Source: Corallium rubrum
Taxonomy: Eukaryota > Cnidaria > Anthozoa > Scleralcyonacea > Coralliidae
DNA: 64,000 nucleotides
Assembly (NCBI GenBank): GCA_964035015.1
Contig: OZ035997.1
Coordinates: forward strand, 16,227,467-16,291,466
Direction of reading: 5' to 3'
Below the pieces are notes generated by a model. The model made no database searches. It was not told the origin of the DNA and saw only the letters and a list, made by a program, of their open reading frames with translations. Below, piece by piece: positions 5,737-26,392 of this stretch. The position numbers and the translations under genes were made by a program. The first letter of the stretch is position 1; each line of letters begins with the position of its first letter.

Positions 5737-5738
5737 TA

Positions 5739-6762: not shown

Positions 6763-6872
6763 CATAAATTGCGCTTTATATTAATTTGATACACTTCCGC
6801 ATAAACATCTGAGAATAGCAGAACAAGAACATTGTTTATGAGGACATTTATTAACAGTATAATGTATTTCAT

Positions 6873-7523: not shown

Positions 7524-7701
7524 TGAATTAATTTTAATTCATCACTATGACGTCATGTAATGAATGTCTTACAAAAGATGTTAGTTGGATACATGCAATA
7601 TACTCTGTATAGTCATATCACCCATTTTTGTGTGCATTCACATCATATAGGCAATGCAGTAAGCGAAACACTTCCGAATATTCCCCCAAAAATATCGCAG
7701 A

Positions 7702-9664
7702 CAATCAGTGACAAAACTGTTCGGGCAGCACTCATTTTCACAGCAATTACACCCCCGCGCCCCCTTTCAATGTTGTGTCAGGGTAGTGTAACATACCTGC
7801 CGAACTCGATACGTCCTACTCAAAACGTGCTATCAGGGAGCAACATTGCTTAGGGGGAGAGGGGGGAAATTCGTTCACTCAGCGACTTTTTTATTTACAA
7901 GAATTAGTTTTAATAGATTTTTTCAGAGTGCCCGAAGAGGTTTTGTCACTGATTGTCTCAGTCTAAAAGTCATAACAAACTTAGAGTTTTCTTCTCACTT
8001 TCGCCGCATTTCGTTATGGAAAGGATGAATATCTGAATTACTGATTGTATCACAATGTTTTACGGTGCAATGTAGTACTTTCGATACACAAATTATTGCC
8101 TGGCACGATTTTCTTCCGATGCTTGAGGGCCCATTAGTTCACATACTTGCGCCGAAATCACATTTTACGAAGGATACGGTTTTCGATAGCGATATACCCA
8201 TCTTTTCTACAAGCAAGCATCAGCTGGTTTTTGTCAAGAATAGTCAATTGATGTGGATATGATGTCAGTTGGATGGAAGGTGTTCAATTTCAATAGGCAA
8301 ATACCACCGTCACAACAAAAGGAAGTGGTAGCATGTCCAGCTTGCTTCGCCCGTTTAGTTCTCGATTGTGAAGCTTCAACATCAGTTTCTGAAGCTACAT
8401 GACTTATGAAATGTAGGCTGCACATGTGGCAAGACATATAACCACAACTTAATGTAAATACCGCAGATATTATACACGCTACCACATGCTACCACACGCA
8501 ACCACTGTCATTCAATAAAAGGCATAATATGTCCTTATATATTCCCTCGGTGGTAGCATGTGGTAGCATGTCGTAATTTGCGTTTATTGTAAACTTCTCT
8601 GCAAAGATGTTTAGTTAGTAATGATGACAATGTCATAGAGCCACTCGCATCATTAGTTGTGCTGTAACTTAAAATATATTGTATATTTTTACATATTATC
8701 TTAATGGTTGCGTGTGGTTGCGTGTCATAAATTGCGCTTTATATTAATTTGATACACTTCCGCATAAACATCTGAGAATAGCAGAACAAGAACATTGTTT
8801 ATGAGGACATTTATTAACAGTATAATGTATTTCATTTAATATATATTACGATGACCATTACATTTACAAACACTTTTTATTCTGTGCGGCATGCTGGCTA
8901 TTGTTTTATCGATGCATTCTTTTGAAACAGACCAGATATTGCGTTTCACTCTGTCGACAAATTAATCCCATGTTTCACGATTGATATTTTTCTGTTTGAC
9001 CTCTGCATCCAGTTGTTTGCGCACTGTATGGAAAACATTTTCAATAGGATTCAGGTCAGGGGACCTAGCCGGTATCACTTGCATTGTCGCCTTCTTCCGA
9101 CTGTTGTAGAAACCATAGCCTAGCTTTCTTATGTACCTAACGAAGGTCCGATAACTTGCCCAGTTTATGTGTATTCCACTGGTTTGAACCACCTCCATCA
9201 CGGTAAAGTTCGCATCTGTCTCCCTTAATATTTTCACGGCACGCTGTAACCTTCGCTTATCGCGCTCATTTAAAATTTCAGGACGACCAACAGCCTTGGA
9301 AAAAGTTTTATTGTATTCTTTGTCTCCTCTTTCCTCTGCCTTCTTAATCACATCAAAAACACTTGATTTTGAAATCTTTGCTATGGATGCAATTTTCCGT
9401 TGAGAATACTTCTTCTCATGCTTCAAAAGTAAAACTAATGCCCGTTGCTCGGGCCGTAACGGCTTGCGAAACACCATTTTGGTCATTGAATTAATTTTAA
9501 TTCATCACTATGACGTCATGTAATGAATGTCTTACAAAAGATGTTAGTTGGATACATGCAATATACTCTGTATAGTCATATCACCCATTTTTGTGTGCAT
9601 TCACATCATATAGGCAATGCAGTAAGCGAAACACTTCCGAATATTCCCCCAAAAATATCGCAGA
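7702..9664. repeat. Array unit 2 (1963 bp)
   Basis: Same content and order as unit 1, with six G in the G run. No other difference was noticed. Confidence 0.9.
8836..9486 (-). pseudogene. Transposase remnant, unit 2
   Basis: Identical translation to the unit 1 copy, with the same internal deletion and the same premature TAA (8962-8964). Confidence 0.85.
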
Positions 9665-11626
9665 CAATCAGTGACAAAACTGTTCGGGCAGCACTCATTT
9701 TCACAGCAATTACACCCCCGCGCCCCCTTTCAATGTTGTGTCAGGGTAGTGTAACATACCTGCCGAACTCGATACGTCCTACTCAAAACGTGCTATCAGG
9801 GAGCAACATTGCTTAGGGGGAGAGGGGGAAATTCGTTCACTCAGCGACTTTTTTATTTACAAGAATTAGTTTTAATAGATTTTTTCAGAGTGCCCGAAGA
9901 GGTTTTGTCACTGATTGTCTCAGTCTAAAAGTCATAACAAACTTAGAGTTTTCTTCTCACTTTCGCCGCATTTCGTTATGGAAAGGATGAATATCTGAAT
10001 TACTGATTGTATCACAATGTTTTACGGTGCAATGTAGTACTTTCGATACACAAATTATTGCCTGGCACGATTTTCTTCCGATGCTTGAGGGCCCATTAGT
10101 TCACATACTTGCGCCGAAATCACATTTTACGAAGGATACGGTTTTCGATAGCGATATACCCATCTTTTCTACAAGCAAGCATCAGCTGGTTTTTGTCAAG
10201 AATAGTCAATTGATGTGGATATGATGTCAGTTGGATGGAAGGTGTTCAATTTCAATAGGCAAATACCACCGTCACAACAAAAGGAAGTGGTAGCATGTCC
10301 AGCTTGCTTCGCCCGTTTAGTTCTCGATTGTGAAGCTTCAACATCAGTTTCTGAAGCTACATGACTTATGAAATGTAGGCTGCACATGTGGCAAGACATA
10401 TAACCACAACTTAATGTAAATACCGCAGATATTATACACGCTACCACATGCTACCACACGCAACCACTGTCATTCAATAAAAGGCATAATATGTCCTTAT
10501 ATATTCCCTCGGTGGTAGCATGTGGTAGCATGTCGTAATTTGCGTTTATTGTAAACTTCTCTGCAAAGATGTTTAGTTAGTAATGATGACAATGTCATAG
10601 AGCCACTCGCATCATTAGTTGTGCTGTAACTTAAAATATATTGTATATTTTTACATATTATCTTAATGGTTGCGTGTGGTTGCGTGTCATAAATTGCGCT
10701 TTATATTAATTTGATACACTTCCGCATAAACATCTGAGAATAGCAGAACAAGAACATTGTTTATGAGGACATTTATTAACAGTATAATGTATTTCATTTA
10801 ATATATATTACGATGACCATTACATTTACAAACACTTTTTATTCTGTGCGGCATGCTGGCTATTGTTTTATCGATGCATTCTTTTGAAACAGACCAGATA
10901 TTGCGTTTCACTCTGTCGACAAATTAATCCCATGTTTCACGATTGATATTTTTCTGTTTGACCTCTGCATCCAGTTGTTTGCGCACTGTATGGAAAACAT
11001 TTTCAATAGGATTCAGGTCAGGGGACCTAGCCGGTATCACTTGCATTGTCGCCTTCTTCCGACTGTTGTAGAAACCATAGCCTAGCTTTCTTATGTACCT
11101 AACGAAGGTCCGATAACTTGCCCAGTTTATGTGTATTCCACTGGTTTGAACCACCTCCATCACGGTAAAGTTCGCATCTGTCTCCCTTAATATTTTCACG
11201 GCACGCTGTAACCTTCGCTTATCGCGCTCATTTAAAATTTCAGGACGACCAACAGCCTTGGAAAAAGTTTTATTGTATTCTTTGTCTCCTCTTTCCTCTG
11301 CCTTCTTAATCACATCAAAAACACTTGATTTTGAAATCTTTGCTATGGATGCAATTTTCCGTTGAGAATACTTCTTCTCATGCTTCAAAAGTAAAACTAA
11401 TGCCCGTTGCTCGGGCCGTAACGGCTTGCGAAACACCATTTTGGTCATTGAATTAATTTTAATTCATCACTATGACGTCATGTAATGAATGTCTTACAAA
11501 AGATGTTAGTTGGATACATGCAATATACTCTGTATAGTCATATCACCCATTTTTGTGTGCATTCACATCATATAGGCAATGCAGTAAGCGAAACACTTCC
11601 GAATATTCCCCCAAAAATATCGCAGA
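9665..11626. repeat. Array unit 3 (1962 bp)
   Basis: As unit 1 but with five G in the G run, which removes the small plus-strand frame that starts there in units 1 and 2. Confidence 0.9.
10798..11448 (-). pseudogene. Transposase remnant, unit 3
   Basis: Same translation and lesions as unit 1; premature TAA at 10924-10926. Confidence 0.85.
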
Positions 11627-13588
11627 CAATCAGTGACAAAACTGTTCGGGCAGCACTCATTTTCACAGCAATTACACCCCCGCGCCCCCTTTCAATGTTG
11701 TGTCAGGGTAGTGTAACATACCTGCCGAACTCGATACGTCCTACTCAAAACGTGCTATCAGGGAGCAACATTGCTTAGGGGGAGAGGGGGAAATTCGTTC
11801 ACTCAGCGACTTTTTTATTTACAAGAATTAGTTTTAATAGATTTTTTCAGAGTGCCCGAAGAGGTTTTGTCACTGATTGTCTCAGTCTAAAAGTCATAAC
11901 AAACTTAGAGTTTTCTTCTCACTTTCGCCGCATTTCGTTATGGAAAGGATGAATATCTGAATTACTGATTGTATCACAATGTTTTACGGTGCAATGTAGT
12001 ACTTTCGATACACAAATTATTGCCTGGCACGATTTTCTTCCGATGCTTGAGGGCCCATTAGTTCACATACTTGCGCCGAAATCACATTTTACGAAGGATA
12101 CGGTTTTCGATAGCGATATACCCATCTTTTCTACAAGCAAGCATCAGCTGGTTTTTGTCAAGAATAGTCAATTGATGTGGATATGATGTCAGTTGGATGG
12201 AAGGTGTTCAATTTCAATAGGCAAATACCACCGTCACAACAAAAGGAAGTGGTAGCATGTCCAGCTTGCTTCGCCCGTTTAGTTCTCGATTGTGAAGCTT
12301 CAACATCAGTTTCTGAAGCTACATGACTTATGAAATGTAGGCTGCACATGTGGCAAGACATATAACCACAACTTAATGTAAATACCGCAGATATTATACA
12401 CGCTACCACATGCTACCACACGCAACCACTGTCATTCAATAAAAGGCATAATATGTCCTTATATATTCCCTCGGTGGTAGCATGTGGTAGCATGTCGTAA
12501 TTTGCGTTTATTGTAAACTTCTCTGCAAAGATGTTTAGTTAGTAATGATGACAATGTCATAGAGCCACTCGCATCATTAGTTGTGCTGTAACTTAAAATA
12601 TATTGTATATTTTTACATATTATCTTAATGGTTGCGTGTGGTTGCGTGTCATAAATTGCGCTTTATATTAATTTGATACACTTCCGCATAAACATCTGAG
12701 AATAGCAGAACAAGAACATTGTTTATGAGGACATTTATTAACAGTATAATGTATTTCATTTAATATATATTACGATGACCATTACATTTACAAACACTTT
12801 TTATTCTGTGCGGCATGCTGGCTATTGTTTTATCGATGCATTCTTTTGAAACAGACCAGATATTGCGTTTCACTCTGTCGACAAATTAATCCCATGTTTC
12901 ACGATTGATATTTTTCTGTTTGACCTCTGCATCCAGTTGTTTGCGCACTGTATGGAAAACATTTTCAATAGGATTCAGGTCAGGGGACCTAGCCGGTATC
13001 ACTTGCATTGTCGCCTTCTTCCGACTGTTGTAGAAACCATAGCCTAGCTTTCTTATGTACCTAACGAAGGTCCGATAACTTGCCCAGTTTATGTGTATTC
13101 CACTGGTTTGAACCACCTCCATCACGGTAAAGTTCGCATCTGTCTCCCTTAATATTTTCACGGCACGCTGTAACCTTCGCTTATCGCGCTCATTTAAAAT
13201 TTCAGGACGACCAACAGCCTTGGAAAAAGTTTTATTGTATTCTTTGTCTCCTCTTTCCTCTGCCTTCTTAATCACATCAAAAACACTTGATTTTGAAATC
13301 TTTGCTATGGATGCAATTTTCCGTTGAGAATACTTCTTCTCATGCTTCAAAAGTAAAACTAATGCCCGTTGCTCGGGCCGTAACGGCTTGCGAAACACCA
13401 TTTTGGTCATTGAATTAATTTTAATTCATCACTATGACGTCATGTAATGAATGTCTTACAAAAGATGTTAGTTGGATACATGCAATATACTCTGTATAGT
13501 CATATCACCCATTTTTGTGTGCATTCACATCATATAGGCAATGCAGTAAGCGAAACACTTCCGAATATTCCCCCAAAAATATCGCAGA
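11627..13588. repeat. Array unit 4 (1962 bp)
   Basis: Like unit 3, five G in the G run. Confidence 0.9.
12760..13410 (-). pseudogene. Transposase remnant, unit 4
   Basis: Same translation and lesions as unit 1; premature TAA at 12886-12888. Confidence 0.85.
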
Positions 13589-15550
13589 CAATCAGTGACA
13601 AAACTGTTCGGGCAGCACTCATTTTCACAGCAATTACACCCCCGCGCCCCCTTTCAATGTTGTGTCAGGGTAGTGTAACATACCTGCCGAACTCGATACG
13701 TCCTACTCAAAACGTGCTATCAGGGAGCAACATTGCTTAGGGGGAGAGGGGGAAATTCGTTCACTCAGCGACTTTTTTATTTACAAGAATTAGTTTTAAT
13801 AGATTTTTTCAGAGTGCCCGAAGAGGTTTTGTCACTGATTGTCTCAGTCTAAAAGTCATAACAAACTTAGAGTTTTCTTCTCACTTTCGCCGCATTTCGT
13901 TATGGAAAGGATGAATATCTGAATTACTGATTGTATCACAATGTTTTACGGTGCAATGTAGTACTTTCGATACACAAATTATTGCCTGGCACGATTTTCT
14001 TCCGATGCTTGAGGGCCCATTAGTTCACATACTTGCGCCGAAATCACATTTTACGAAGGATACGGTTTTCGATAGCGATATACCCATCTTTTCTACAAGC
14101 AAGCATCAGCTGGTTTTTGTCAAGAATAGTCAATTGATGTGGATATGATGTCAGTTGGATGGAAGGTGTTCAATTTCAATAGGCAAATACCACCGTCACA
14201 ACAAAAGGAAGTGGTAGCATGTCCAGCTTGCTTCGCCCGTTTAGTTCTCGATTGTGAAGCTTCAACATCAGTTTCTGAAGCTACATGACTTATGAAATGT
14301 AGGCTGCACATGTGGCAAGACATATAACCACAACTTAATGTAAATACCGCAGATATTATACACGCTACCACATGCTACCACACGCAACCACTGTCATTCA
14401 ATAAAAGGCATAATATGTCCTTATATATTCCCTCGGTGGTAGCATGTGGTAGCATGTCGTAATTTGCGTTTATTGTAAACTTCTCTGCAAAGATGTTTAG
14501 TTAGTAATGATGACAATGTCATAGAGCCACTCGCATCATTAGTTGTGCTGTAACTTAAAATATATTGTATATTTTTACATATTATCTTAATGGTTGCGTG
14601 TGGTTGCGTGTCATAAATTGCGCTTTATATTAATTTGATACACTTCCGCATAAACATCTGAGAATAGCAGAACAAGAACATTGTTTATGAGGACATTTAT
14701 TAACAGTATAATGTATTTCATTTAATATATATTACGATGACCATTACATTTACAAACACTTTTTATTCTGTGCGGCATGCTGGCTATTGTTTTATCGATG
14801 CATTCTTTTGAAACAGACCAGATATTGCGTTTCACTCTGTCGACAAATTAATCCCATGTTTCACGATTGATATTTTTCTGTTTGACCTCTGCATCCAGTT
14901 GTTTGCGCACTGTATGGAAAACATTTTCAATAGGATTCAGGTCAGGGGACCTAGCCGGTATCACTTGCATTGTCGCCTTCTTCCGACTGTTGTAGAAACC
15001 ATAGCCTAGCTTTCTTATGTACCTAACGAAGGTCCGATAACTTGCCCAGTTTATGTGTATTCCACTGGTTTGAACCACCTCCATCACGGTAAAGTTCGCA
15101 TCTGTCTCCCTTAATATTTTCACGGCACGCTGTAACCTTCGCTTATCGCGCTCATTTAAAATTTCAGGACGACCAACAGCCTTGGAAAAAGTTTTATTGT
15201 ATTCTTTGTCTCCTCTTTCCTCTGCCTTCTTAATCACATCAAAAACACTTGATTTTGAAATCTTTGCTATGGATGCAATTTTCCGTTGAGAATACTTCTT
15301 CTCATGCTTCAAAAGTAAAACTAATGCCCGTTGCTCGGGCCGTAACGGCTTGCGAAACACCATTTTGGTCATTGAATTAATTTTAATTCATCACTATGAC
15401 GTCATGTAATGAATGTCTTACAAAAGATGTTAGTTGGATACATGCAATATACTCTGTATAGTCATATCACCCATTTTTGTGTGCATTCACATCATATAGG
15501 CAATGCAGTAAGCGAAACACTTCCGAATATTCCCCCAAAAATATCGCAGA
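13589..15550. repeat. Array unit 5 (1962 bp)
   Basis: Like units 3 and 4, five G in the G run. It is followed by the terminal 254-bp segment. Confidence 0.9.
14722..15372 (-). pseudogene. Transposase remnant, unit 5
   Basis: Same translation and lesions as unit 1; premature TAA at 14848-14850. Confidence 0.85.
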
Positions 15551-15804
15551 CAATCAGTGACAAAACTGTTCGGGCAGCACTCATTTTCACAGCAATTACA
15601 CCCCCGCGCCCCCTTTCAATGTTGTGTCAGGGTAGTGTAACATACCTGCCGAACTCGATACGTCCTACTCAAAACGTGCTATCAGGGAGCAACATTGCTT
15701 AGGGGGAGAGGGGGGAAATTCGTTCACTCAGCGACTTTTTTATTTACAAGAATTAGTTTTAATAGATTTTTTCAGAGTGCCCGAAGAGGTTTTGTCACTG
15801 ATTG
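15551..15804. repeat. Terminal 254-bp segment closing the array
   Basis: Sixth copy of the MITE-like segment, with six G as in units 1 and 2. Its last base abuts the right TA (15805-15806), beyond which the BRO-N coding sequence begins. Confidence 0.9.
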
Positions 15805-15806
15805 TA

Positions 15807-16284
15807 GGCCTGGTATGACCACAGCGTTAGGATGGTACTTTTTTATATATCTGATCACCTGATGATGTAGGTCAGTCTCATTCATAAGTGACAGCTGGTT
15901 ACCAATAAGCCTAGGTGCTATATACTGTCCGGTTTTTCTTATTGAGGGTAGAACATCTCTGAACACCCAGTTCCTAAACCTCTTTGCTATAGGTAGTTTG
16001 GATGAGAACACCAGACTATATACTCCAGGCTCATTTATCTGGTAAATCTGAGAAGCCCCACCCTGAGGCCTCTCAGAATGTGACATTTGACAGACCCCCC
16101 GTTTTGGGGGGTTTGCTGCTTGCATCACCTTTTTCTTACAGTCAGCATCAACGTGATCACGGATAGCATTATCCGGCCTCCTGTAACCAAGCGCCTCAGC
16201 AACGTCTTTTCCCCTGAACCATATCTCATCACCATCCTTTTGTGTTCTGATTATTTTATCACCAAAACTGAATGACTTGATCAT
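15807..16284 (-). pseudogene. BRO-N/VRR-NUC gene, N-terminal part (BRO-N domain)
   Basis: The first half of the split gene. Residues about 1-115 form a BRO-N (baculovirus repeated ORF) DNA-binding domain: IWFRGKDVAEALGYRRPDNAI near the start, then YQINEPGVYSLVFSSKLPIA and RNWVFRDVLPSIRKTGQY. A linker with HHQVIRYIKKYHPNAVVIPG begins the nuclease domain and is cut by the array; the rest is at 5413-5736. The start ATG (16284) follows CCTATAGT, matching the start context of other genes in this element. BRO-N fused to a VRR-NUC nuclease suggests a DNA-binding repair or resolution enzyme. The fusion is seen directly; the function is inferred. Confidence 0.8.
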
Positions 16285-16410
16285 ACTATAGGTGTATGTA
16301 TTTATAAAACTTATTTAAACGCACCTGACCCGCTATCATCACATTTTCTATATCGGGTCAGATGCGTTTAAATGGGTCCACCATCTAAGTTTATTTTCTA
16401 CACATCCTAT
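16285..16410. promoter_or_regulatory. Divergent promoter with operator-like palindrome
   Basis: Between the BRO-N gene (minus) and a small gene (plus) lies an inverted repeat: TTTAAACGCACCTGACCCG (16314-16332) and CGGGTCAGATGCGTTTAAA (16354-16372), 19-nt arms with one mismatch and a 21-nt spacer. TATA-like TTTATAAA lies at 16302-16309 towards the BRO-N start. Placement between divergent genes suggests an operator or bidirectional promoter. The half-site recurs upstream of polB. Confidence 0.55.
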
Positions 16411-16614
16411 ATGGAGGACATAGAGCGTGTCATAGGAAATCTGGTTGATAAAATATGTGAGTCGGAGGGGAAGGTACCTGACAGAGAAATAGATAGAATG
16501 ATGAGAGAGTTAATAGATCTTAATAGTCTTTACACAAGGCTAAGACGTAAAAAATCTAAACATAAAAAACCCCGGGTTTACTCACCCAGGTACCAGCCCT
16601 ATATAGGAAAGTAG
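16411..16614 (+). CDS. Small hypothetical protein (67 aa)
   Basis: The start at 16411 is chosen because TCCTAT precedes ATGG, like other genes here, and because the longer frame from 16372 begins inside the palindrome. The product starts MEDIERVIGNLVDK, is helical and charged, and has a basic tail (RLRRKKSKHKKPR), so it could bind nucleic acid. It resembles the 59-aa frame at 5301-5480 in its start, length and upstream motif. No known family is recognised. It ends six bases before the end of the convergent pseudo-nuclease gene. Confidence 0.5.
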   Translation: MEDIERVIGNLVDKICESEGKVPDREIDRMMRELIDLNSLYTRLRRKKSKHKKPRVYSPRYQPYIGK

Positions 16615-16619
16615 GTCGG

Positions 16620-17384
16620 TTATGGACAGTCCTCTTCGCAGAACTTAGGTAGGCGGTCACCATGATCAAACTCCCCCCTCATATACTGATCAATTATGTC
16701 AGTTATGTCCTGATAGTCCAGGGACGCTATGGTTATGTACGGCCTTTTAGCCATATTAAGTAGGTGATGAAACTGACTGTAGCTTAGACTGGATAGGTTG
16801 TAACACTCTGAGGATTCACTTAACCATATCGCCAACCCATTGTGTATAGCGCTCTTTGAGAATATGGTAATGTCTGGACCGGACTCGGACCCAAACGTTG
16901 GTATTATAGCTGCATACTTATACTCCCTCATAACAAATCCTACAACGTCATATAGCGTGTCAATATCAATGGAGGTTAATGGTGTCCTCTCACGCCTTTC
17001 GAAGGGATTAATCACACCAAGACGGTTCAGGCCCTTTATAAGATCTAACTGTCTACTATCCGTCACGTAATCACCCGAACCACCCGGGTGGTATAACGAC
17101 AGGTAATACGTAAGGGCAGAGCGTAGGTCACCATAGTCATCAGATACTTTGACAGCATGTCCTGACATCACGAACCTATCCATTTGATCCATCCTATAGT
17201 CTGTTATCTTTGACGTCACCCACATTGATAACCCCGTGTAACCACCCCTCCTCTCAAGTATTATGATGTTGGGTAACCCAAGACCTTTACCGTCCGTAGA
17301 CCTTGCTGTGAATAATACCTCTGGATGATACTTCTCTATATAACTGACCATCTCACTAACGACTTTCCTATAGCGACTGACCAT
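16620..17384 (-). CDS. Double VRR-NUC-like protein with degenerate catalytic residues (254 aa)
   Basis: Two tandem domains each follow the layout of the VRR-NUC domain encoded next door. Domain 1 (about 11-97) has SYIEKYHPEVLF, then GLPNIII at 37-42 and GLSMWVT at 51-57. Domain 2 (about 143-236) has SGPDITIF at 168-175 and GLAIWLS at 183-189. In the intact neighbour the same blocks read GQPDIII and GLAIELK. Domain 1 has thus lost Asp, Glu and Lys. Domain 2 keeps the Asp (171) but lacks Glu-x-Lys. Both keep the following helix-strand pattern. This looks like duplication with loss of catalysis, perhaps a regulatory or DNA-binding partner of the active enzyme. The frame is open and starts in TAGTATATGG context. 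Confidence 0.75.
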   Translation of the reverse strand: MVSRYRKVVSEMVSYIEKYHPEVLFTARSTDGKGLGLPNIIILERRGGYTGLSMWVTSKITDYRMDQMDRFVMSGHAVKVSDDYGDLRSALTYYLSLYHPGGSGDYVTDSRQLDLIKGLNRLGVINPFERRERTPLTSIDIDTLYDVVGFVMREYKYAAIIPTFGSESGPDITIFSKSAIHNGLAIWLSESSECYNLSSLSYSQFHHLLNMAKRPYITIASLDYQDITDIIDQYMRGEFDHGDRLPKFCEEDCP

Positions 17385-17409
17385 ATACTAGGTGTATAAA
17401 ATTATTTCT

Positions 17410-17934
17410 TTAAGTGTCCTCCCACTTCAGGAACATAGGACATCTGCAATCAATGTCCCAACCCAGCTCCCTATATACAGATCCGAACAACCGATCATCA
17501 AACATGTTCTTACTATATCCGTCACACATGTCACTGACGTCTGTGAGTAGTGTTAGTCCTCTGCGACTTGCCAACCTTATTATATAGTAGTTATACCTAC
17601 TTACATTTTTTCCTATCAGGTTAAGTCTCATCAGAACTGACACAACCTTTATGAAATCAGCTGTCAACATTCTTTCATCAGAACTATTAACAACTCCTGC
17701 TATCCTTCTAGCAAACCACTTACTTCTCTTATGAACAGTCTTACTCTTGCTCCACGACATTAGATCCAACTCTGGTACAGGTACTGTGAAAGGCCCCTGT
17801 AGACCACATGACGTGCAGGTTGGGAAACCATGACAGTTTATACGTTGACCGCCACAGTCGCATGTGTACATCTCATCGATTCTCCTGAATCTTCGCTCCA
17901 CATAGTCTTCCCTTCTACCCATATAATATAGCAT
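17410..17934 (-). CDS. Zinc-ribbon protein, possibly VLTF3/TFIIB-like transcription factor
   Basis: The N-terminal part has a four-cysteine zinc ribbon, CDCGG at about 25-29 and CTSCG at about 40-44. It is followed by an HKRSKWFARRI segment and a helical region with cysteines again near the end (DCRCPMFLKW). A ribbon followed by a basic-aromatic KR..F motif and helices recalls viral late transcription factor 3, which occurs in polinton-like viruses and large DNA viruses. I cannot confirm homology by eye, and a TFIIB-like or unrelated ribbon is possible. ATG at 17934 or, in better context (CTATATTATATGG), 17922. If it is VLTF3-like, it would be a natural partner for the shared start-site motif. 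Confidence 0.5.
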   Translation of the reverse strand: MLYYMGRREDYVERRFRRIDEMYTCDCGGQRINCHGFPTCTSCGLQGPFTVPVPELDLMSWSKSKTVHKRSKWFARRIAGVVNSSDERMLTADFIKVVSVLMRLNLIGKNVSRYNYYIIRLASRRGLTLLTDVSDMCDGYSKNMFDDRLFGSVYRELGWDIDCRCPMFLKWEDT

Positions 17935-17993
17935 AGGAATATATCTTTAAATAAGCCATGCCCTATGTGCTATGAAACCCACAGAGACTCCTG

Positions 17994-18353
17994 CTATAGC
18001 AACAAACATTGCCTAGAAGGCTTATAGAAGTCTCCAAGTTTAGGTTCACCCCTGAAGGTCATACCATTTGAGGTGTATGTTCTCAGCTTATCCAAGGCCC
18101 TGTTAGTGGCATTTATGTCGGCGTTGGCATCACTTAACTCTGCTCTAAGTTGAGCCAACCTATCCTTATGTCTTATCTCATTCTCGTAGAATGATTCCTT
18201 GGCTGCTGCCAACTTCTCCATGCTTAGGTTATGTCTCTTAATTTCCTTCTCATATCCAGTGTGGTTAAGCTTATTAAATAGGAAACCTGCCCCAGCAAAA
18301 CTTAGTGCAGCGAATGTTGTCTGAAGAGCTCCACCTGCTAATGCTCCTGCCAT
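17994..18353 (-). CDS. Polinton membrane/coiled-coil protein (119 aa)
   Basis: Residues 2-26 are hydrophobic and glycine/alanine rich (GALAGGALQTTFAALSFAGA), compatible with a membrane segment. Residues about 34-90 are a charged, heptad-like helix. The C-terminus has GEPKLGDFYKPS, a tail I recall from proteins of other invertebrate Polintons. Function unknown; virion membrane-interacting or scaffolding are guesses. It lies in a tight run of leftward genes. The start lies in ACATTATATGG. Confidence 0.65.
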   Translation of the reverse strand: MAGALAGGALQTTFAALSFAGAGFLFNKLNHTGYEKEIKRHNLSMEKLAAAKESFYENEIRHKDRLAQLRAELSDANADINATNRALDKLRTYTSNGMTFRGEPKLGDFYKPSRQCLLL

Positions 18354-18363
18354 ATAATGTTAA

Positions 18364-18597
18364 CTAGGTATTCTTGAAGGGGTCCTCAGGTATGTATTTC
18401 TTCTGCTGCAGGTATTTTACAGTTAGTGTTGATGCTGTGATACCAACTGCTAGCTTCACATATGACTTTACACTTTCAGCCGATGTTAGCGGCTCCCTAA
18501 ACAGCTTCTTACTAGCCATGCTAAATAGTACAACTCCTACCGTAACTAGAACAGCGTCGAATCCTTCGTTCATAAGTTCCTTCCTCTGAGCCGACAT
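18364..18597 (-). CDS. Small two-segment membrane protein (77 aa)
   Basis: Two hydrophobic stretches (about residues 14-29 and 46-61) flank a short polar loop with a KKLFREPL motif. The end YIPEDPFKNT is polar. Length, layout and position between other small membrane genes fit a conserved Polinton protein; function unknown. The ATG follows CACTAGTAGT. Confidence 0.65.
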   Translation of the reverse strand: MSAQRKELMNEGFDAVLVTVGVVLFSMASKKLFREPLTSAESVKSYVKLAVGITASTLTVKYLQQKKYIPEDPFKNT

Positions 18598-18615
18598 ACT
18601 ACTAGTGATATTTAG

Positions 18616-18971
18616 TTACAATGTCTCCAGATTACTAGTCTCTGCAACTGGCTCAGCTGTGGGTGTGACAACAGCAGCGGCTACCACTTCCCTCCTATCA
18701 CTCCTCCATGAAAAGTACAGTGACATGCCCGCCACCAGAAGTCCTGCTAGTCCTAACATATATCCATTAGAAGGTAATGACCATGAGGAATCTGGCTCCT
18801 CCATCTTTATCCTTTCCTTCATCTTCTTTTCCTTTGCTGCTTTGGATATTGCTGCCAGCCTCTTACCTGCCTCTATACACGTTTCGGATATTTAGTCTTG
18901 ACATCAGTAGTGATCTTGGGGTCTTTGCTGTCAGACATCTTATAGGTTACTACAGGTTTGCTGTCAGACAT
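18616..18971 (-). pseudogene. Single-pass membrane protein gene with a frameshift
   Basis: The start lies in a 33-nt tandem repeat, each copy reading ATGTCTGACAGCAAA (18971, 18938; a third copy lacks the ATG). The first frame runs to KTKYPKRV and a TAG at 18873-18875. In another frame the sequence continues EAGKRLAAISKAAKEKKMKER, then a membrane segment (YMLGLAGLLVAGMSLYFSW) to 18616. The point of change reads CGTGTATAGAGG, which looks like gain of a TA dinucleotide. I recall KRV-EAGKRLA-type proteins in other Polintons, which supports one broken gene. Programmed frameshifting or a sequence error are alternatives. Confidence 0.65.
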
Positions 18972-18994
18972 CTTATAGATTACCTCAGGTTTAC

Positions 18995-19945
18995 TTACCG
19001 TCTTGCTGTCAGATACACTGCAGATACCGCTAAGATAACTGTGAGATACTTACCAGTAAATACTAGAACATCTCCACCAGCCTCCTCAATATCTGACCAT
19101 GGTATACTTACCTTAGCTGGGTTAAGCTTCTCCCACTTTCTCCTCTTCTTCCCAGCATGTATCACATCTGAGCCTCCTCTTGTTAGTCCAACTGCTAGCC
19201 CTGTGACTACCGCCGCTATGCTAAGACCAATACCCAATATCACACCAGCCTTCTTCACAGTCCTTCTAAACATCTTTCTCTGCCACTCATCATATAGGTC
19301 CCTTATATCGCCTCTAATAATCTTAGTATCAGTATCTACAGACCTGTCAGCTGTCTCGAACTCACGATTAAAGTACCTAACTCTGTAGTCGGAAGCAGTA
19401 CCTGGTTTTCTCTCAATACTTAGGATTTCTCCGTCAATAAGATAGTCTATGAAATCGGGATCAACACAATCCCCAATATTCAGAATGTTAGTGAAAAGAT
19501 CAATAACATACTCATGGACCCGTCTTCTCATTACTGAATCCTCATTATTAAGCATTATGTTAACACTTTCGTCATAATCTACAGTATCTGGCTGATTATC
19601 AGTTCTGAAACCCCAGTCGTCCCATTCTAATTCACTAACATGACCGCTCTCATTATCATCAACCTTATTATTATCTAACCTATCCATTTCAATATACTCA
19701 TGTGCTGTGTTAGTGTCACGTCCAGCGATCCTGCTCGGTCTTCTCTTATCATATTCTTCATAGATGTTTAATGGTGCTTCCTCAGCGACACGGATCTCAT
19801 TACCAAAACGGCTCACCTCGTAATTAGGGCCTGCATTAGTTCCGCCGAAATCTGTTTCTTCAGTTTTAGGTTCATCATTGGGAACCTCATAGTCACCGTA
19901 AGCGCTATCTCTAGCATTCATTTTAATCTCCTCGAAGCCCGCCAT
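18995..19945 (-). CDS. Acidic protein with two C-terminal membrane segments (316 aa)
   Basis: Residues 1-130 are acidic and probably disordered, with repeated Tyr/Glu/Asp motifs. About 130-232 looks folded (VHEYVIDLFTNILNIGDCV). Hydrophobic segments lie at about 233-256 and 293-314, separated by a basic loop (GKKRRKWEK). A type of structural membrane protein is likely; I do not recognise the family. Its start overlaps the end of the upstream gene by 23 bp, suggesting co-transcription. Its end overlaps the first repeat of the downstream gene's start region. Confidence 0.65.
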   Translation of the reverse strand: MAGFEEIKMNARDSAYGDYEVPNDEPKTEETDFGGTNAGPNYEVSRFGNEIRVAEEAPLNIYEEYDKRRPSRIAGRDTNTAHEYIEMDRLDNNKVDDNESGHVSELEWDDWGFRTDNQPDTVDYDESVNIMLNNEDSVMRRRVHEYVIDLFTNILNIGDCVDPDFIDYLIDGEILSIERKPGTASDYRVRYFNREFETADRSVDTDTKIIRGDIRDLYDEWQRKMFRRTVKKAGVILGIGLSIAAVVTGLAVGLTRGGSDVIHAGKKRRKWEKLNPAKVSIPWSDIEEAGGDVLVFTGKYLTVILAVSAVYLTARR

Positions 19946-20300
19946 AATACTCCGATGATTTCATATATGCATGACCTCTGTAGACCCTACTGTACCTGTC
20001 CTTTATTTTCCTCTCCAGCGGCATTGTGCTGTCATTTATTATATTGTCTACCATGGTCAGATTGCTAAACATTGTGGATCTGTCAAACTCAATACCTCTG
20101 AGGTATCCTTTGATGGTGTTTAGTGACTTTGTATAGCTCTTGTATGCCACCTCGCACTGACTTACTTTCTCCGCTATTCTCTTATTCTTGATATACCCAT
20201 GCATAAGAAGTCCGACAGCACTTATAGATAATGTAGCGAATCCACCTAATGCGCTAAACGCCCCGCCAGCAACAGTCAGGAATATAGCAGACATGTTCAT
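19923..20300 (-). CDS. Small membrane/coiled-coil protein (125 aa)
   Basis: The N-terminal hydrophobic stretch (about 5-35, SAIFLTVAGGAFSALGGFAT) is followed by a helical charged region with tyrosines. The layout parallels the 119-aa protein at 17994-18353, so the two may be distant paralogues. Function unknown. Confidence 0.6.
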   Translation of the reverse strand: MNMSAIFLTVAGGAFSALGGFATLSISAVGLLMHGYIKNKRIAEKVSQCEVAYKSYTKSLNTIKGYLRGIEFDRSTMFSNLTMVDNIINDSTMPLERKIKDRYSRVYRGHAYMKSSEYYGGLRGD

Positions 20301-20325
20301 GGTAAGATTGATCCTAGAGAGTCTC

Positions 20326-20469
20326 TTAAATTGCCACTGGTAGCAGGTAGCAGGTAGCCATCATGTGGTAATGCTCGTAAAGTGATTTTAACATCTCAAC
20401 CTCTCCCGGGCTCAGCTTATCAGATATATGGTTGAATCTTATTATACTCTTCTCTCTGTTAAGTGTCAT
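20326..20469 (-). CDS. Small hypothetical protein (47 aa)
   Basis: A short frame filling an otherwise empty gap between leftward genes: MTLNREKSIIRFNHISDK, then LSPGEVEMLKSLYEHYHMM. The amphipathic helical pattern and its fit in the operon-like run support it, and the ATG context GTTAGCTTATG partly matches the shared start motif. No family is established. Confidence 0.45.
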   Translation of the reverse strand: MTLNREKSIIRFNHISDKLSPGEVEMLKSLYEHYHMMATCYLLPVAI

Positions 20470-20483
20470 AAGCTAACCCCGAT

Positions 20484-21065
20484 TCAGACTGGCTCGTAGA
20501 ATGCTACAGTTAGGCAACTCTCATTACCACTAGTCAGTCCAGTTATTGTTGGGTAGATGTAGCCGACAGATGGTTTATTACTGGCCTGCTGTGCTGAGAT
20601 AGTGTCTTTCACATAAAAGTCGTGATTCACAGGTATAGACCAGTGACCGCTATAATGCCTGTCTGCGTTTCCTAGGGTAAGTGTACCAAGTAGCTCAGAA
20701 CCTTGTGTTGCTCTGTAGGTAACATAGTACAGCCGGTACGTGACCTGCACTACGTTGTCAGGCACGACGCCATCTGTGTCGAACGAGTGGCATAATATTC
20801 TTATCATAGTGTCCTTACTTACTGGGAAGGTGTTACCGCCGAGCGCTTCCGGCGTTCCACCAATTGCTGGATAGTACCAGGCCATTGTGGCGTTAAGTCT
20901 GTAATTTTCCTTCTTAGCGAACTTTTCTATGGCATACTTTTTATTTATCAGGTGGTTGTCATCAGTGGCCGGTATGCTTTGAGTTATCCTGAAATTTTTC
21001 ATGTCAATGTCGTCAGTGACTTCATTACTTCCTGGTGACACTGAGTAACCTAAATTCAGGCTCAT
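20484..21065 (-). CDS. Fibre- or attachment-type protein (193 aa)
   Basis: The N-terminal part has DMKNFRITQSIPATDDN followed by NKKYAIEKFAKK, the layout seen in shaft or tail-fibre proteins of phages and viruses where a short repeat precedes the head. The rest is rich in beta-prone, aromatic and Ser/Thr sequence with no hydrophobic segment, consistent with a globular beta-rich head. It is the first gene of the leftward block, facing a capsid-type gene across the divergent promoter. The call is based on sequence style and position. Confidence 0.5.
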   Translation of the reverse strand: MSLNLGYSVSPGSNEVTDDIDMKNFRITQSIPATDDNHLINKKYAIEKFAKKENYRLNATMAWYYPAIGGTPEALGGNTFPVSKDTMIRILCHSFDTDGVVPDNVVQVTYRLYYVTYRATQGSELLGTLTLGNADRHYSGHWSIPVNHDFYVKDTISAQQASNKPSVGYIYPTITGLTSGNESCLTVAFYEPV

Positions 21066-21113
21066 ATATTAGGGTATATAAGCCTGCTTACTGCGTAACC
21101 ACCCACGGCAGCT
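21066..21113. promoter_or_regulatory. Central divergent promoter with TATA box
   Basis: This gap separates the leftward and rightward gene blocks. GTATATAAG (21074-21082) is a good TATA box for rightward transcription. The minus-strand start is preceded by CCTAATATATG. It is the only point where the two blocks diverge in the right half of the element. Confidence 0.55.
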
Positions 21114-21812
21114 ATGGGTAGATGTTACCATAATATGATCTATACTATGAGGAAACTAACTGTGCTGATAGAAGGATCGTATAAGGTGATCAGATTGGAG
21201 GAGCCTATAATGACAGGGAAAAATCCCCATATTCTGCTGAAGAAGGCTTACATAATGTGGGAGTACTATAATGTATCCAGCAGTAAGGGCAACTACTATG
21301 TTCACAATAAGAGGGTGAACAAATTCCTTGGGGATGGTTATTATACATTCCAGGATTTTAAGAAGATACTTGAGGGGAACAGCGGGGTTACATTAACACT
21401 TAGTAAACCAGAGGCTAAGTGTACGATGGTGACCGACAGTAGCACGACGCTAGTACTGCATAACAACTTAGCATCTTTACTAGGATTCAGCACCCGTATA
21501 TTCTTACCAGGTAGTAGCACAAAGAGTGGTCTGATAAATGTGAATAATGGACTGAAGTACTTGGTGGTGATGTGTAATGTGATATCCACATCAATGAATT
21601 TATACAATGGAAGGAAGAGTAATACCCTAGTGAGTCTTCCAGTAACTAGTGAGCAGCCGCTGTTCGGTTCAACACAGTCATTTGTTGACATTGAGACTGA
21701 GCTTGAAATTGGTAAAGGTGTTATAAATGAGTTGGAATTCCATGTAACAGATCAGAACGGAAACCCGCTGAATGGTTTTGGGAGCATGTTGCTGGAGCTG
21801 TACATCTCGTAG
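21114..21812 (+). CDS. Conserved Polinton structural-type protein (minor capsid candidate)
   Basis: A 232-aa beta-rich protein without membrane segments. The end ELEFHVTDQNGNPLNGFG then MLLELYIS has the strand-loop-strand look of a beta-sandwich virion protein. First gene of the rightward block, upstream of integrase. Alternative starts are the ATGs at 21135 and 21147 (the latter in CTATACTATG context). A penton/minor capsid (single jelly-roll) role is possible but not shown. Confidence 0.55.
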   Translation: MGRCYHNMIYTMRKLTVLIEGSYKVIRLEEPIMTGKNPHILLKKAYIMWEYYNVSSSKGNYYVHNKRVNKFLGDGYYTFQDFKKILEGNSGVTLTLSKPEAKCTMVTDSSTTLVLHNNLASLLGFSTRIFLPGSSTKSGLINVNNGLKYLVVMCNVISTSMNLYNGRKSNTLVSLPVTSEQPLFGSTQSFVDIETELEIGKGVINELEFHVTDQNGNPLNGFGSMLLELYIS

Positions 21813-21817
21813 AGTAT

Positions 21818-22906
21818 ATGGACAATGACATAGAATTGGAACAGGGGCTTAGAGATATATACTATAAACCGGCAACTGGTTACCAGTCATCTGAGAGACT
21901 TTACCAGAAAGCATTGGCTGATGGTCTCCCCGGTGTGAGTAGGAAGAAGGTCACTAAGTGGTTGAAATCGCAGGACACTTTTACACGGTACAGGAAAATA
22001 GTTGGCAGGCATAAGTTTAGGTAGACCAGGGTTTACTACCTTGGTGAGCAGCTACAAATGGATCTTGTTGATATGGGTAAGTATGGGAATAAGAACGGGG
22101 GATACCGTTGGATACTGACAGCTGTTGAAATCCTAAGTAGATATGCCTTTGCAATCCCTGTGTATAGGAAAGACACCGGAAGCATGACCAAGGCGGTAAC
22201 GTTGCTGCTTAAGAAATTTGATAAGCGTTTCGGAGCGGATCCAGAACTGGTGCAGTTTGACGACGGTAAGGAATTTTACAATGTTGGGGTGAGGTCCTTA
22301 CTGGAAGGAGTTGGTGCTAAGTTCTTTAGCACCCTATCGGATAAGAAGGCTGCTATTGTGGAACGGTTTAACAGAACCCTCAAGACGGCTATGTGGCAGT
22401 ACTTCTACAGTAAGGGAACATATAAGTGGACTGATGTTCTAGACTCGCTGGTTAGCAATTACAATAACAGTAAGCATAGAACTATACTGATGAAACCGGT
22501 TAATGTGAATAAAAGTAACGAGGCTGAAGTGTGGAACACCTTATTTGGCCACACATCTGGAGAGTACCCTCTAGCTAAACTTAAAGTTGGTGACACTGTA
22601 AGGATAAGTAAGTACAAAAGCATATTCACTAAAGGTTATGAGGCTAACTTCACAGAGGAACTGTTCAAGGTGACGAAGGTAATCCGGGGTGACCCAAATG
22701 TTTATGAAATAGCGGACTTAGAGGGCGAGCCGGTAATTGGGAAGTTTTATGAAGAGGAGCTAAGTGCTGTTGTTAAGAGGGATCATGTCTATAGAGTAGA
22801 GAAAATACTGAAGAGGAAAAAGAAGATGGCTCTGGTGAAGTGGCTCGGGTATGATAGCAAGCATAATAGCTGGGTACCTGAGAGTGATATCCAGAATATT
22901 AACTAG
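21818..22906 (+). pseudogene. int: Retroviral-type integrase with chromodomain, interrupted by one TAG
   Basis: The N-terminal segment (21818-22021) is the Polinton integrase pre-core region (YYKPATGYQSSERLYQKA). TAG at 22022-22024 stops it, but the same frame stays open to 22906. The core shows MDLVDM (first Asp, 22058-), QFDDGKEF and VERFNRTLK; the second Asp and the Glu are 33-34 residues apart, as in D,D-35-E enzymes. The C-terminus is a chromodomain (YRVEKIL...VKWLGY...WVPESDI). The integrase joins element ends to the target, giving the 6-bp duplication. With one nonsense codon and no other lesion, inactivation is recent, or the stop is read through. Confidence 0.9.
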
Positions 22907-22909
22907 TGT

Positions 22910-24526
22910 ATGGCAGCACGTGGTGATATGTTTCATGATTATGAGATGGAAGAAGTGTACCCCGAATATGGTGAGATGGATCATGATCAGCTGATGGAGA
23001 ATCATAACCTCCTATTAGATATAGACGAACCCTCTAAGGATGAGCTTGCTAGGCTCGAGTATGTTAAGAGTCTTATTAATGATATCCCTAATCCTAGGAC
23101 AGCATGGATTGACACAGACATTAACAGTAGAGGAGACTTTGCTACCATCAGGGAAGTTGGTACCGCTGATAATATTAGTAAATATGTTAATACGTTAGTT
23201 ACTAGAAGTGGTGCCTTCAGAAAAGAAGTTGCAAATTACAAGCGTATAAACACGGTCAGACTTATTAAGTCATTCATAGCTATAACTGATGGTGATAATG
23301 TGAGGCCCCTACTAAATAACAGGCCCGGTAACAGAATAATCAGTGGCGTTACTTTCTCAAGAGGGGGGTCTGTCAAACTTGGTGGTCTCACAACTACCCT
23401 AAGTTACAATGGCGTAGACGTTAGGGAGATTAACACAACCAAGTATGGCACTGACGGTAAACCCATCGTCAGGAGTTTTAATGTTGGCCTTGAGGTTGAG
23501 GCTGAGTTCAGTTCTTTAGTCGCTGATACCCTTAGGATCACAAGAGACTTAGCGGAGTCGTTATCAAGTGATACAGGATCAAGCCTGGAAGCTGCTATGG
23601 ATGTGGTTGATGAGTATCAGGAAGACCCAGTAGTGGCGGATACTGATCAAGCACGTGAGATGAGGACACTTATTGATAGGAATTCTGAGAGGGACCTTAA
23701 CAGAATTAATAAGGACTATCAGAACCTAGAGCCAGGGGAAAGGGTAGGTAGACTTATGAAGATCATTAATGACCCCAACATTTTTGACGGAACTGGTAAT
23801 GATCCAGTTAATCTACCTGATAGTGTGACCGGTGATATAGTCGAGTCCTCCGTTTCAGAAATTAGTAGGAGGTTACATGAACTGGCTGGGGAGTTTACAG
23901 AGCAGGATATCAGGGAGTTCACAGGGATACTGGACCCTAGGGGGGATGCTGACATCAGGATAGCGGCACTGGACCAGACTGCTGGTGAGTACGGACTTAA
24001 GGCTCTGAGAGAGACTGACCCGCTGAGGGAGCAACTTTATAAGAATATCCAGAAGACTGCAGAGCTAAAGAGCGATTTTATACGTGTTACTGAGAAACGT
24101 GGTGTTCCTGTCTACAGTGACGCTATTGCAGTGTTTGAGGAAGAGGTTGATGGTAATGAGAGTATAGAGGATCTGTCTAGGTTAGAACGCTTTAAGGAGT
24201 GGATGAAGGAGAACTGGCTTAATGCGACATCATTTGCTGTGGCTGTGGCTTCCCTTCTAACGACAATAATACTTGGAACACGTACTGTTATTAAGAAGGG
24301 CGCCAACGCTGTTGGATCATTTGGACGGTCAGTTTATAATGCCTTTAGGAAGTTGGCGAAGAAACTTGGTCCGGTGTTGGGTCCTATGATTACAGCCTTA
24401 GGTAGTCTGATTCTCAATCTTCTGAAGTATGGTGCTATGGGGCTGGCCTGGTTGGCTAGCAATCTGTGGGTGTTGGTTCTGGCAATTGTATGGATGGCTT
24501 ATGACAGATATGGAAAAAAGAAATAA
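22910..24526 (+). CDS. Large Polinton membrane protein, PX-like candidate (538 aa)
   Basis: A long soluble region (1-435, acidic, largely helical, with RTAWIDTDI and VNTLVTRSGAF near the start) ends in two or three hydrophobic segments (about 440-457, 492-510 and 513-530) separated by a basic stretch (TRTVIKKGANAV). Size, position between integrase and capsid, and hydrophobic tail suit the PX protein described for Polintons; function is unknown. It starts three bases after the integrase stop in CTAGTGTATGG. The frame is open. Confidence 0.6.
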   Translation: MAARGDMFHDYEMEEVYPEYGEMDHDQLMENHNLLLDIDEPSKDELARLEYVKSLINDIPNPRTAWIDTDINSRGDFATIREVGTADNISKYVNTLVTRSGAFRKEVANYKRINTVRLIKSFIAITDGDNVRPLLNNRPGNRIISGVTFSRGGSVKLGGLTTTLSYNGVDVREINTTKYGTDGKPIVRSFNVGLEVEAEFSSLVADTLRITRDLAESLSSDTGSSLEAAMDVVDEYQEDPVVADTDQAREMRTLIDRNSERDLNRINKDYQNLEPGERVGRLMKIINDPNIFDGTGNDPVNLPDSVTGDIVESSVSEISRRLHELAGEFTEQDIREFTGILDPRGDADIRIAALDQTAGEYGLKALRETDPLREQLYKNIQKTAELKSDFIRVTEKRGVPVYSDAIAVFEEEVDGNESIEDLSRLERFKEWMKENWLNATSFAVAVASLLTTIILGTRTVIKKGANAVGSFGRSVYNAFRKLAKKLGPVLGPMITALGSLILNLLKYGAMGLAWLASNLWVLVLAIVWMAYDRYGKKK

Positions 24527-24541
24527 GATATAACTTAGTCT

Positions 24542-25777
24542 ATGTTGCAGGAAGATAGAATCACTCCAAGCTACAAACTAAAGAAACCGGACAGTAGTAA
24601 GAAAGGCACTAGGAGAGTAGTCGATGTGACATTTAACCCAACACATATATCCTCTGGTCAGGACCTGTATGTAAAGCTGTCGACACTACCAGTTAATCAT
24701 GTACTAATTCCTGGCAGTAGGATGCTTACGTTCACCCTGAAAAATGGCAACAAGGAGTCATACCATCAGAACAACCTTAAGTCCACCCTGTTTAAGCAAG
24801 TAACCCACAAGCTTAATGGGGAAATATACAGGGATCTGAATGAAGCCCATGTTCTTAGGTGTTATGAGGACCTGTGGTCTAAGTCAAAAAGGGTTGGAAA
24901 AATTGATCAGGGTCTTGGTGGGAGTGTGAACCTTGCTAAGCTAAGGAGTCAGGACGCTAGTGGTGATTCTAGCGTTGCTGGTGATGCTCTTGTAAATGGT
25001 ATCTATGGTGACAGGTTTACAATACCTATTGATGATGATTGGCTTAGTGAGAATGGAGCTATCTATCCCCAAGCACTGCAGAACACCCATGAAACCATAC
25101 TAAAGATTAACACACCAGCTAACGTGTTACTCCCCGGTGGTAGTGGTAAGGCTGTGCCAGGAAGCTTTAGACTTGATAACCTTAAGTTGAGGTATGAGAC
25201 AGTTGAGAATGAAATGTTAGCGGGCGAGGTTGAGGGAATTTACAGTAGGGGAAAATCTTCCTACTACAGTCACGCCACCCTAGTTAAGACCTTCCCAGTT
25301 ACTGCTGCTAGCACAAAAATTCATGAGAATGTGAACTTACCAAGGAAGTCCCTTAGAAATATCGTGATGATCTTTAAGAGAACTACTGACGGAAGTGAGT
25401 CTTTCTACTACCCATCTATCGAAAGTGTTAAGATAAGCTTCCAGGGCCAGCCAAACTTCCTTTATACACAGTCGATGAAGAAGTACGATTTCTTCAGTGA
25501 GGCCAGTCGGGTGTTCTTCCCAAGTGATGACAGGTTTGATAGGAATGTTAGTGAGGCGAGTTTCTTCAGTGATAAGTTTGCCCTGGTCTGTGACTTCTCA
25601 ACAACAGCGTTAAAGAGGGTACAGGGTCAGGGTGTGAGGCTAACTGATACACAGAATGGAATACTTATCGAGGTTGAGAAAAGTGCTGGGACCACTGCCT
25701 GTACCTGCTACCTTTACGTGCTGTCGGATGGGTTAATAAACCTGGCTAATGGCCAGCTTCAGTCTATTCAGTATTAG
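24542..25777 (+). CDS. mcp: Major capsid protein (411 aa)
   Basis: Recognised by family resemblance to Polinton double jelly-roll major capsid proteins: VDVTFNPTHISSGQDLYVKL at the start, LNGEIYRDLNEAHVLRCYEDL, YGDRFTIPID, then NGAIYPQAL, and LPRKSLRNIVMIF in the second half. No membrane segment. Length is at the short end of the family (usually over 450). Intact frame, located directly upstream of the packaging ATPase with a 3-bp gap. ATG context CTTAGTCTATG. Confidence 0.8.
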   Translation: MLQEDRITPSYKLKKPDSSKKGTRRVVDVTFNPTHISSGQDLYVKLSTLPVNHVLIPGSRMLTFTLKNGNKESYHQNNLKSTLFKQVTHKLNGEIYRDLNEAHVLRCYEDLWSKSKRVGKIDQGLGGSVNLAKLRSQDASGDSSVAGDALVNGIYGDRFTIPIDDDWLSENGAIYPQALQNTHETILKINTPANVLLPGGSGKAVPGSFRLDNLKLRYETVENEMLAGEVEGIYSRGKSSYYSHATLVKTFPVTAASTKIHENVNLPRKSLRNIVMIFKRTTDGSESFYYPSIESVKISFQGQPNFLYTQSMKKYDFFSEASRVFFPSDDRFDRNVSEASFFSDKFALVCDFSTTALKRVQGQGVRLTDTQNGILIEVEKSAGTTACTCYLYVLSDGLINLANGQLQSIQY

Positions 25778-25780
25778 TGT

Positions 25781-26377: not shown

Positions 26378-26392
26378 AACATAACCTAATGT

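Follow-up and report, generated by a model that had tools for sequence, protein, structure and literature searches.

A tandem VRR-NUC pseudonuclease gene conserved in a Polinton lineage of Corallium rubrum

A double VRR-NUC protein that Pfam misses

The window analysed here is a stretch of 64,000 nucleotides of Corallium rubrum (contig OZ035997.1, positions 16,227,467 to 16,291,466). It contains a Polinton, and on the minus strand of this element lies an open reading frame of 254 amino acids, which an initial annotation, made from the sequence alone, had described as two tandem VRR-NUC domains with their catalytic residues lost. The frame is indeed present at 16620-17384 with both of the motif pairs that had been quoted (GLPNIII/GLSMWVT and SGPDITI/GLAIWLS), and we are highly confident that it represents a conserved tandem pseudonuclease of this Polinton lineage. 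Its parts are listed here; the 82 rows are those of an alignment of copies described below.

16620..17384, minus strand: tandem pseudo-VRR-NUC gene, 254 amino acids (from the open reading frame, profile matches and alignment)
16992..17384, minus strand: half 1, residues 1-131, degenerate VRR-NUC in which N39, W55 and T57 replace D, E and K
16620..16991, minus strand: half 2, residues 132-254 and the stop codon, degenerate VRR-NUC; D171 and Q204 are kept, W187 and S189 replace E and K
17220..17222, minus strand: codon of W55, the tryptophan that all 82 rows have in place of the ExK glutamate of half 1
16824..16826, minus strand: codon of W187, the corresponding tryptophan of half 2, likewise in all 82 rows

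Pfam returned no VRR_NUC match at E≤10 for the window's tandem protein, so that the initial annotation had spotted what Pfam misses, and it returned none for seven divergent tandem copies either. With a hidden Markov model (HMM) built from 63 VRR-NUCs, halves 1 and 2 scored 15.7 and 30.1 bits, above the best of 20,000 shuffles of each (8.8 and 9.0), and of the 258 open reading frames in the window the tandem frame and two pieces of its neighbour alone passed the inclusion threshold. With a narrower profile of 13 rows the margin for half 1 was small (12.3, compared with 11.9 for the best shuffle). When the tandem protein served as the sole query against 4,998 open reading frames of 57 viral contigs, which had been picked by VRR-NUC motifs, all 22 of the matches listed were VRR-NUC frames. 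Alignment of the halves to VRR-NUC with hhalign gave 94.3% and 94.8%, which places both in the family by sequence profile. A profile of the tandem family aligned to the VRR profile through half 1 (98.6%, E 5.8e-16), and its sole PDB sequence match at E≤10 was a VRR-NUC, 4qbl (E 0.0069). Structure modelling, proposed earlier as a check, returned each half as VRR-NUC and neither as an unrelated fold. Both halves are thus VRR-NUC by descent and fold, yet they are not VRR-NUCs of the active type.

Dead sites across the copies of one genome

The double-domain protein is also found in other elements. A search for the tandem gene in the same 474-Mb genome gave at least 149 matches at E≤10, of which some are partial and 7 of the 149 matched stretches hold a stop. 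From these, 80 regions were fetched, a non-random pick of near-full-length, stop-free matches, and as one region carries two copies they supply 81 rows, to which the window's own makes 82. In every row the ExK glutamate has become tryptophan in both halves. Five columns (R28, L52, W55, W187 and Q204) are invariant among these rows, in which identity falls to 26%. At the lysine position, half 1 has T in 49 rows, K in 17, S in 10 and other residues in 6; half 2 has S in 53, G in 14 and others in 15, and never K (0 of 82). Half 1 retains the PD aspartate in 54 of 82 rows and half 2 in 70 of 82; the glutamine of half 2 is present in 82 of 82. The claim that catalytic residues are lost in both domains therefore stands for the glutamate and lysine of each half, and for the aspartate replaced by N39, but not for D171 and Q204, which half 2 retains.

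Among 125 metagenomic VRR-NUC relatives, gathered by word matches and hence biased toward similar motifs, the E, D, E, K and Q of the E-PD-ExK-Q signature of active nucleases are kept in 123, 125, 123, 124 and 123, respectively; the tandem protein, with W at the ExK glutamate of both halves in all rows, lacks this signature. In the adjacent VRR-NUC, which occurs in 38 of the 40 loci retrieved together with their flanks, E, K and Q are present in 38 of 38 readable rows each and D in 37 of 38. The metal ligand has thus been lost as a fixed feature of the copies read, beside a relative of the active type; no row has the ExK glutamate, and the window's protein is accordingly not a lone decayed enzyme. 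On these sequence grounds the tandem protein should not cut DNA, because the ExK glutamate is gone and the lysine is mostly gone.

It might nevertheless still be a nuclease, if the active site had moved or worked without the usual glutamate, and migrating catalytic residues are known in the PD-(D/E)XK superfamily. The retention of D and K together in half 1 of 17 of 82 rows, and of the D and Q of half 2 in the proportions given above, would favor such an enzyme. Both tryptophans and the missing lysine of half 2 speak against it, as does the first motif of half 1, which has no glutamate in 62 rows (D in 3, a gap in 4), and we regard this explanation as very unlikely.

Conservation is among the highest in the beta strands that surround the dead site, and the helices and the linker vary more. 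The median isoelectric point (pI) of the tandem proteins is 6.05 (5th-95th percentile 5.3-8.7, 62 rows), compared with 9.2 for the neighbour's VRR domain, and their net charge is -3.5, compared with +7 for the active VRR domain. Positive charge surrounds VRR-NUC active sites (PMC4103454), and judging from the two pI values such charge has not been kept overall.

In a tree based on all columns the two halves join (94/94). Removal of the PD and ExK columns instead places half 2 with the active neighbours (51/98), and the AU test rejects neither topology (p-AU 0.41 and 0.28), so that a single inactivation followed by duplication and two separate losses would both fit. The idea that the shared tryptophan dates inactivation to before the duplication was dropped for these reasons. 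One element (locus L103, 1998-3710, minus strand) carries a pair of adjacent tandem pseudonuclease genes that are divergent, with 44% and 36% identity to that of the window.

The host element and the divergence of its genes

The Polinton and those of its genes that are used below are as follows.

290..29346, no strand: Polinton, with terminal inverted repeats exact over the first 767 bp and target duplication CACAGG (284-289, 29347-29352)
24542..25777, plus strand: putative capsid gene, so named for its position next to the A32-type ATPase; used to gauge how closely elements are related
17994..18353, minus strand: 119-aa gene upstream of the tandem gene, in 40 of 40 loci
17410..17934, minus strand: VLTF3-like gene upstream of the tandem gene, matched weakly by Pfam (E 0.089); found in all 40 loci, broken in some
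16372..16614, plus strand: 80-aa gene lying between BRO-N and the tandem gene; found in all 40 loci
15812..16284, minus strand: BRO-N part of the neighbour gene (Pfam Bro-N, E 2e-26), severed by a transposon array
5739..15811, no strand: five head-to-tail Tc1/mariner-like copies and a partial one, period 1,962-1,963 bp
5413..5736, minus strand: VRR-NUC and zinc-finger-like part of the neighbour (VRR_NUC E 4.9e-8 for the frame 5413-5778), with D, E, K and Q present

A chromodomain integrase, an A32-type ATPase, long terminal inverted repeats and the 6-bp target duplication identify the element as a Polinton/Maverick. What we take to be its polymerase was recognized only by eye, from its motifs, and is split over two frames; Pfam gave no polymerase match in this region (1291-4818, minus strand), where a short stretch between the two open frames is maybe a small insertion and the larger frame matches Endonuclease_7 (E 1.3e-6). 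The putative capsid protein has no Pfam or PDB sequence match. The 80-aa protein has a basic tail, a ratio of nonsynonymous to synonymous differences per site (pN/pS) of 0.47 and no convincing family match. At the right border, an 89-nt inverted repeat pair (29346-29582) hints at a small repeat element whose edge served as the Polinton's insertion site.

In order of minus-strand transcription there follow the 119-aa gene, the VLTF3-like gene, the tandem gene and BRO-N/VRR-NUC. The initial annotation had set the tandem gene beside a BRO-N/VRR-NUC gene with the motifs GQPDIII/GLAIELK. These motifs lie at 5413-5736, and in 34 of 40 other loci BRO-N/VRR-NUC is a single open frame adjoining the tandem gene, but in the window copy the array of about 10 kb splits the two parts. 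BRO-N is found on the same strand, directly downstream of the tandem gene, in 39 of 40 loci and VRR-NUC in 38 of 40. The Tc1/mariner-like copies match DDE_3 at E 6.2e-6, below Pfam's own cut-off; five near-identical head-to-tail copies within one gene are unusual and might be partly an effect of assembly. The BRO-N/VRR-NUC fusion is not rare, since 19 of the 120 relatives listed from the protein database combine the two Pfam domains.

Selection on the tandem gene was estimated from 19 disjoint pairs drawn from 38 loci, which gave a pooled pN/pS of 0.63 (bootstrap 0.56-0.71); the BRO-N region gave 0.34 and the VLTF3-like and 119-aa genes 0.22 each. This value, together with the D, E, K and Q of the neighbour, upholds the proposal that an inactive double nuclease has been kept open, and under selection, beside one of the active type. 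A decaying gene or a chance open reading frame without function could show a relaxed ratio of this kind, and might also explain the stops and partial matches noted above, particularly as the copies read were chosen to be stop-free. However, the bootstrap interval excludes 1, five residues are unchanged across rows as divergent as these, and two halves are predicted to fold as VRR-NUC. A gene without function is thus already largely contradicted and, in our judgement, barely credible.

The tandem proteins differ strongly between elements that are otherwise closely related. Of 847 candidate capsid genes, 101 were scored, and these are 90-100% identical; 88 of the 101 have a tandem match within 25 kb (median distance 8.1 kb) and 13 have none. 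In the 46 linked copies, the window's included, whose capsid is at least 98% identical to that of the window, the tandem proteins are 27-100% identical to the window's (median 52.5; 27-96% when its own is set aside), and some of the tandem matches in the linked set cover only part of the protein. Compared with the window over 44 loci, the 119-aa protein has a median identity of 94%, the VLTF3-like protein 93%, VRR-NUC 85% (range 73-100% without L077 and L080, whose retrieved sequence does not include VRR-NUC), the 80-aa protein 82%, BRO-N 68% (43 loci) and the tandem protein 51%. Within the neighbour, BRO-N is therefore the more variable part, as if it and VRR-NUC were exchanged as separate modules.

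These data also bear on the possibility that a nuclease was exapted here as a virion or nucleocapsid protein, for which TTV1 TP1 offers a precedent (PMC4625639). A protein that is mostly acidic, evolves rapidly, diverges between elements with near-identical capsid proteins and is encoded on the strand opposite the putative capsid gene does not fit this role well, and we consider it highly improbable.

In four loci, chosen as divergent, DNA similarity of 78-93% extends as far as the fourth base of the tandem gene and returns 21-61 bases past its end. In 32 of the 44 loci, a DNA alignment still covers 90% or more of the gene. In 142 pairs of loci whose flanks have a synonymous divergence (pS) of 0.1-0.2, the median pS is 0.50 for the tandem gene, 0.45 for BRO-N and 0.39 for VRR-NUC. 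The tandem alleles are therefore older than their surroundings, and since pS is similarly raised in BRO-N and VRR-NUC, exchange affects these too. The two halves of the tandem gene seem to have undergone occasional separate exchange (8 and 3 of 3,321 pairs).

The terminal repeats (290-1313 and 28323-29346) seem to come in types. In a search with 1,001 bases, for which 40 of 233 candidates were scored, the window's repeat was found at 98-100% in four elements, the window's included, among the matches listed. The tandem alleles of the other three are 98%, 90% and 53% identical to the window's, and two alleles of 94% and 96% have no such repeat nearby among those matches. This comparison concerns the possibility that the tandem protein binds DNA structures, as an intramolecular pseudo-dimer which would recognize and protect four-way junctions, flaps or the ends of the element. 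VRR-NUC dimers bind four-way junctions (PMC4103454), FANCM contains a pseudonuclease domain that binds DNA (PMC12263834), and the conserved strands around the dead site would suit such a function. The acidic median pI, the negative net charge and the more variable helices and linker argue against it, as do the 53%-identical allele beside the same repeat (98%) and the 94-96% alleles without one, so that we find a DNA-structure binder rather unlikely.

Candidate partners of the tandem protein

If the tandem protein works by binding, a natural candidate is the nuclease encoded beside it. The dead halves might pair with active BRO-N/VRR-NUC subunits through the conserved beta-sheet interface, restraining the nuclease or placing it on DNA, in the manner of the dead subunits of FANCM-FAAP24 and XPF-ERCC1. 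Several facts are in keeping with this: the gene order and shared strand, the catalytic residues of the neighbour, the pairing of an acidic tandem protein with a basic VRR domain, and the dimeric state of bacterial and phage VRR-NUCs (PMC4103454). In Mantel tests over 41 loci (L077, L080 and L103 left out), distances between tandem proteins were correlated with those between VRR-NUCs (rho 0.33, p 0.002). However, there was no coupling with BRO-N (rho 0.02, p 0.40), and the VRR-NUC correlation is no higher than that with the VLTF3-like gene (0.33; the 119-aa and 80-aa genes gave 0.42 and 0.40). Furthermore, in 14 pairs of loci (12 loci) that are near-identical in both BRO-N and VRR-NUC, the tandem proteins are 0.4-72% apart (median 51%), with 3 of the 14 below 10%. 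Tandem alleles accompany differing versions of BRO-N and VRR-NUC and show no coupling specific to the neighbour, and dimer partnering, which the initial annotation had suggested, is not supported in so far as it means an allele-specific partner. A partner held solely by the conserved core would go unnoticed in this comparison, and we place the regulatory-partner explanation on the unlikely side.

With no ExK ligand, with the positive charge not kept overall and with no specific coupling to its neighbour, the tandem protein is best guessed to be a binder whose target lies outside its operon, and we tentatively favor a conflict-driven version of this. The two halves would form a rigid, tryptophan-plugged pseudo-dimer that works by binding, and the bound partner would probably be a protein from outside its own operon, either a host factor, such as a nuclease or DNA-repair protein acting against the element, or a factor of a rival element. 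Conflict with this target would drive the rapid divergence and the swapping of alleles. A regulatory or decoy role, as proposed earlier, may apply, with a target that more likely lies outside the operon.

Several observations weigh against the proposal of an out-of-operon target in conflict. Some tandem copies are basic, as the upper percentile of pI indicates. Positive selection is not established, since the pooled pN/pS stays under 1 and, of the 27 disjoint pairs in an earlier set (range 0.10-1.82), just 3 exceed 1. BRO-N and VRR-NUC are mosaic as well (median pS 0.39-0.46, with flanks at 0.09-0.17); exchange is therefore not unique to the tandem gene, which is set apart by its amino-acid divergence. 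Deep, functionally silent diversification would look similar. Tandem distances do correlate with those of VRR-NUC, although no more than with those of unrelated neighbours. Finally, as two of the three elements that share the window's terminal repeat carry tandem alleles of 98% and 90%, a link between allele and termini may exist.

Comparison with known systems helps to define what is new. From the VRR-NUCs (PF08774) psNUC, stNUC, saNUC and FAN1 (PMC4103454) the tandem protein differs in having two domains per chain, W at both ExK glutamates, a mostly lost lysine, a mostly acidic composition and no Pfam match. A Polinton-like virus of Oxyrrhis marina has the same BRO-N/VRR-NUC fusion as the active-type neighbour here, and the accessible passages of its description make no mention of a tandem pseudo-VRR-NUC (PMC12721341). 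Wolbachia CidB and CinB likewise carry several PD-(D/E)XK domains per protein, and those of CidB keep the fold without intact catalytic motifs; they are bacterial, consist of other domains and are paired with CifA; they are compared here as a functional analogy only (PMC12687446). TTV1 TP1 is likewise a viral reuse of a nuclease minus its catalytic residues, but it is a split Cas4 and a virion protein of an archaeal virus (PMC4625639). EMALE virophages, too, are integrated elements that carry different gene versions although they otherwise resemble one another, and their primase/helicase versions change with the terminal repeats (PMC10945749), whereas no strict link to the repeats was seen here.

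PD-(D/E)XK pseudonucleases are thus already known, and the tandem VRR-NUC with tryptophan in both dead sites seems to be the new part. Among the entries listed in searches of the open-licence literature on VRR-NUC, Polintons and pseudonucleases there was no description of such a protein, in agreement with the initial annotation, which knew of no Polinton protein of this kind; the string "vrr" occurs 0 times in the retrievable text of a preprint on animal virus gene transfer (PMC11071296). Outside this genome, no homologue of the window's tandem protein was scored in the protein database, none was found in IMG/VR with that protein or with the family profile, and none in GTDB genomes with a single peptide pattern as query. 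One phage match at E 5 was obtained with the window's protein and no phage match with one divergent copy as query; the putative capsid and ATPase proteins found nothing in IMG/VR. Since the collections searched are mostly prokaryotic and viral, confinement of the family to one species is not implied.

Dead enzymes retained by viruses often mark conflicts or regulators, and the present case raises the question of what a Polinton gains from a nuclease that seemingly does not cut, and why this gene differs among otherwise near-identical elements. The accessory genes of Polintons are poorly understood; the tandem gene makes this question testable, as one genome offers scores of natural alleles of a dead nuclease beside a live relative. 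A more far-reaching suggestion, which we think unlikely, would make the tandem pseudonuclease an allelic recognition locus of Polintons. Its alleles would each block or recognize rival elements or host factors, old alleles would be kept in one genome by balancing or conflict-driven selection, and the tryptophan-plugged dead site would form part of the binding surface. If this were true, allelic recognition would amount to a self/non-self or counter-defence system made from a dead resolvase-type domain.
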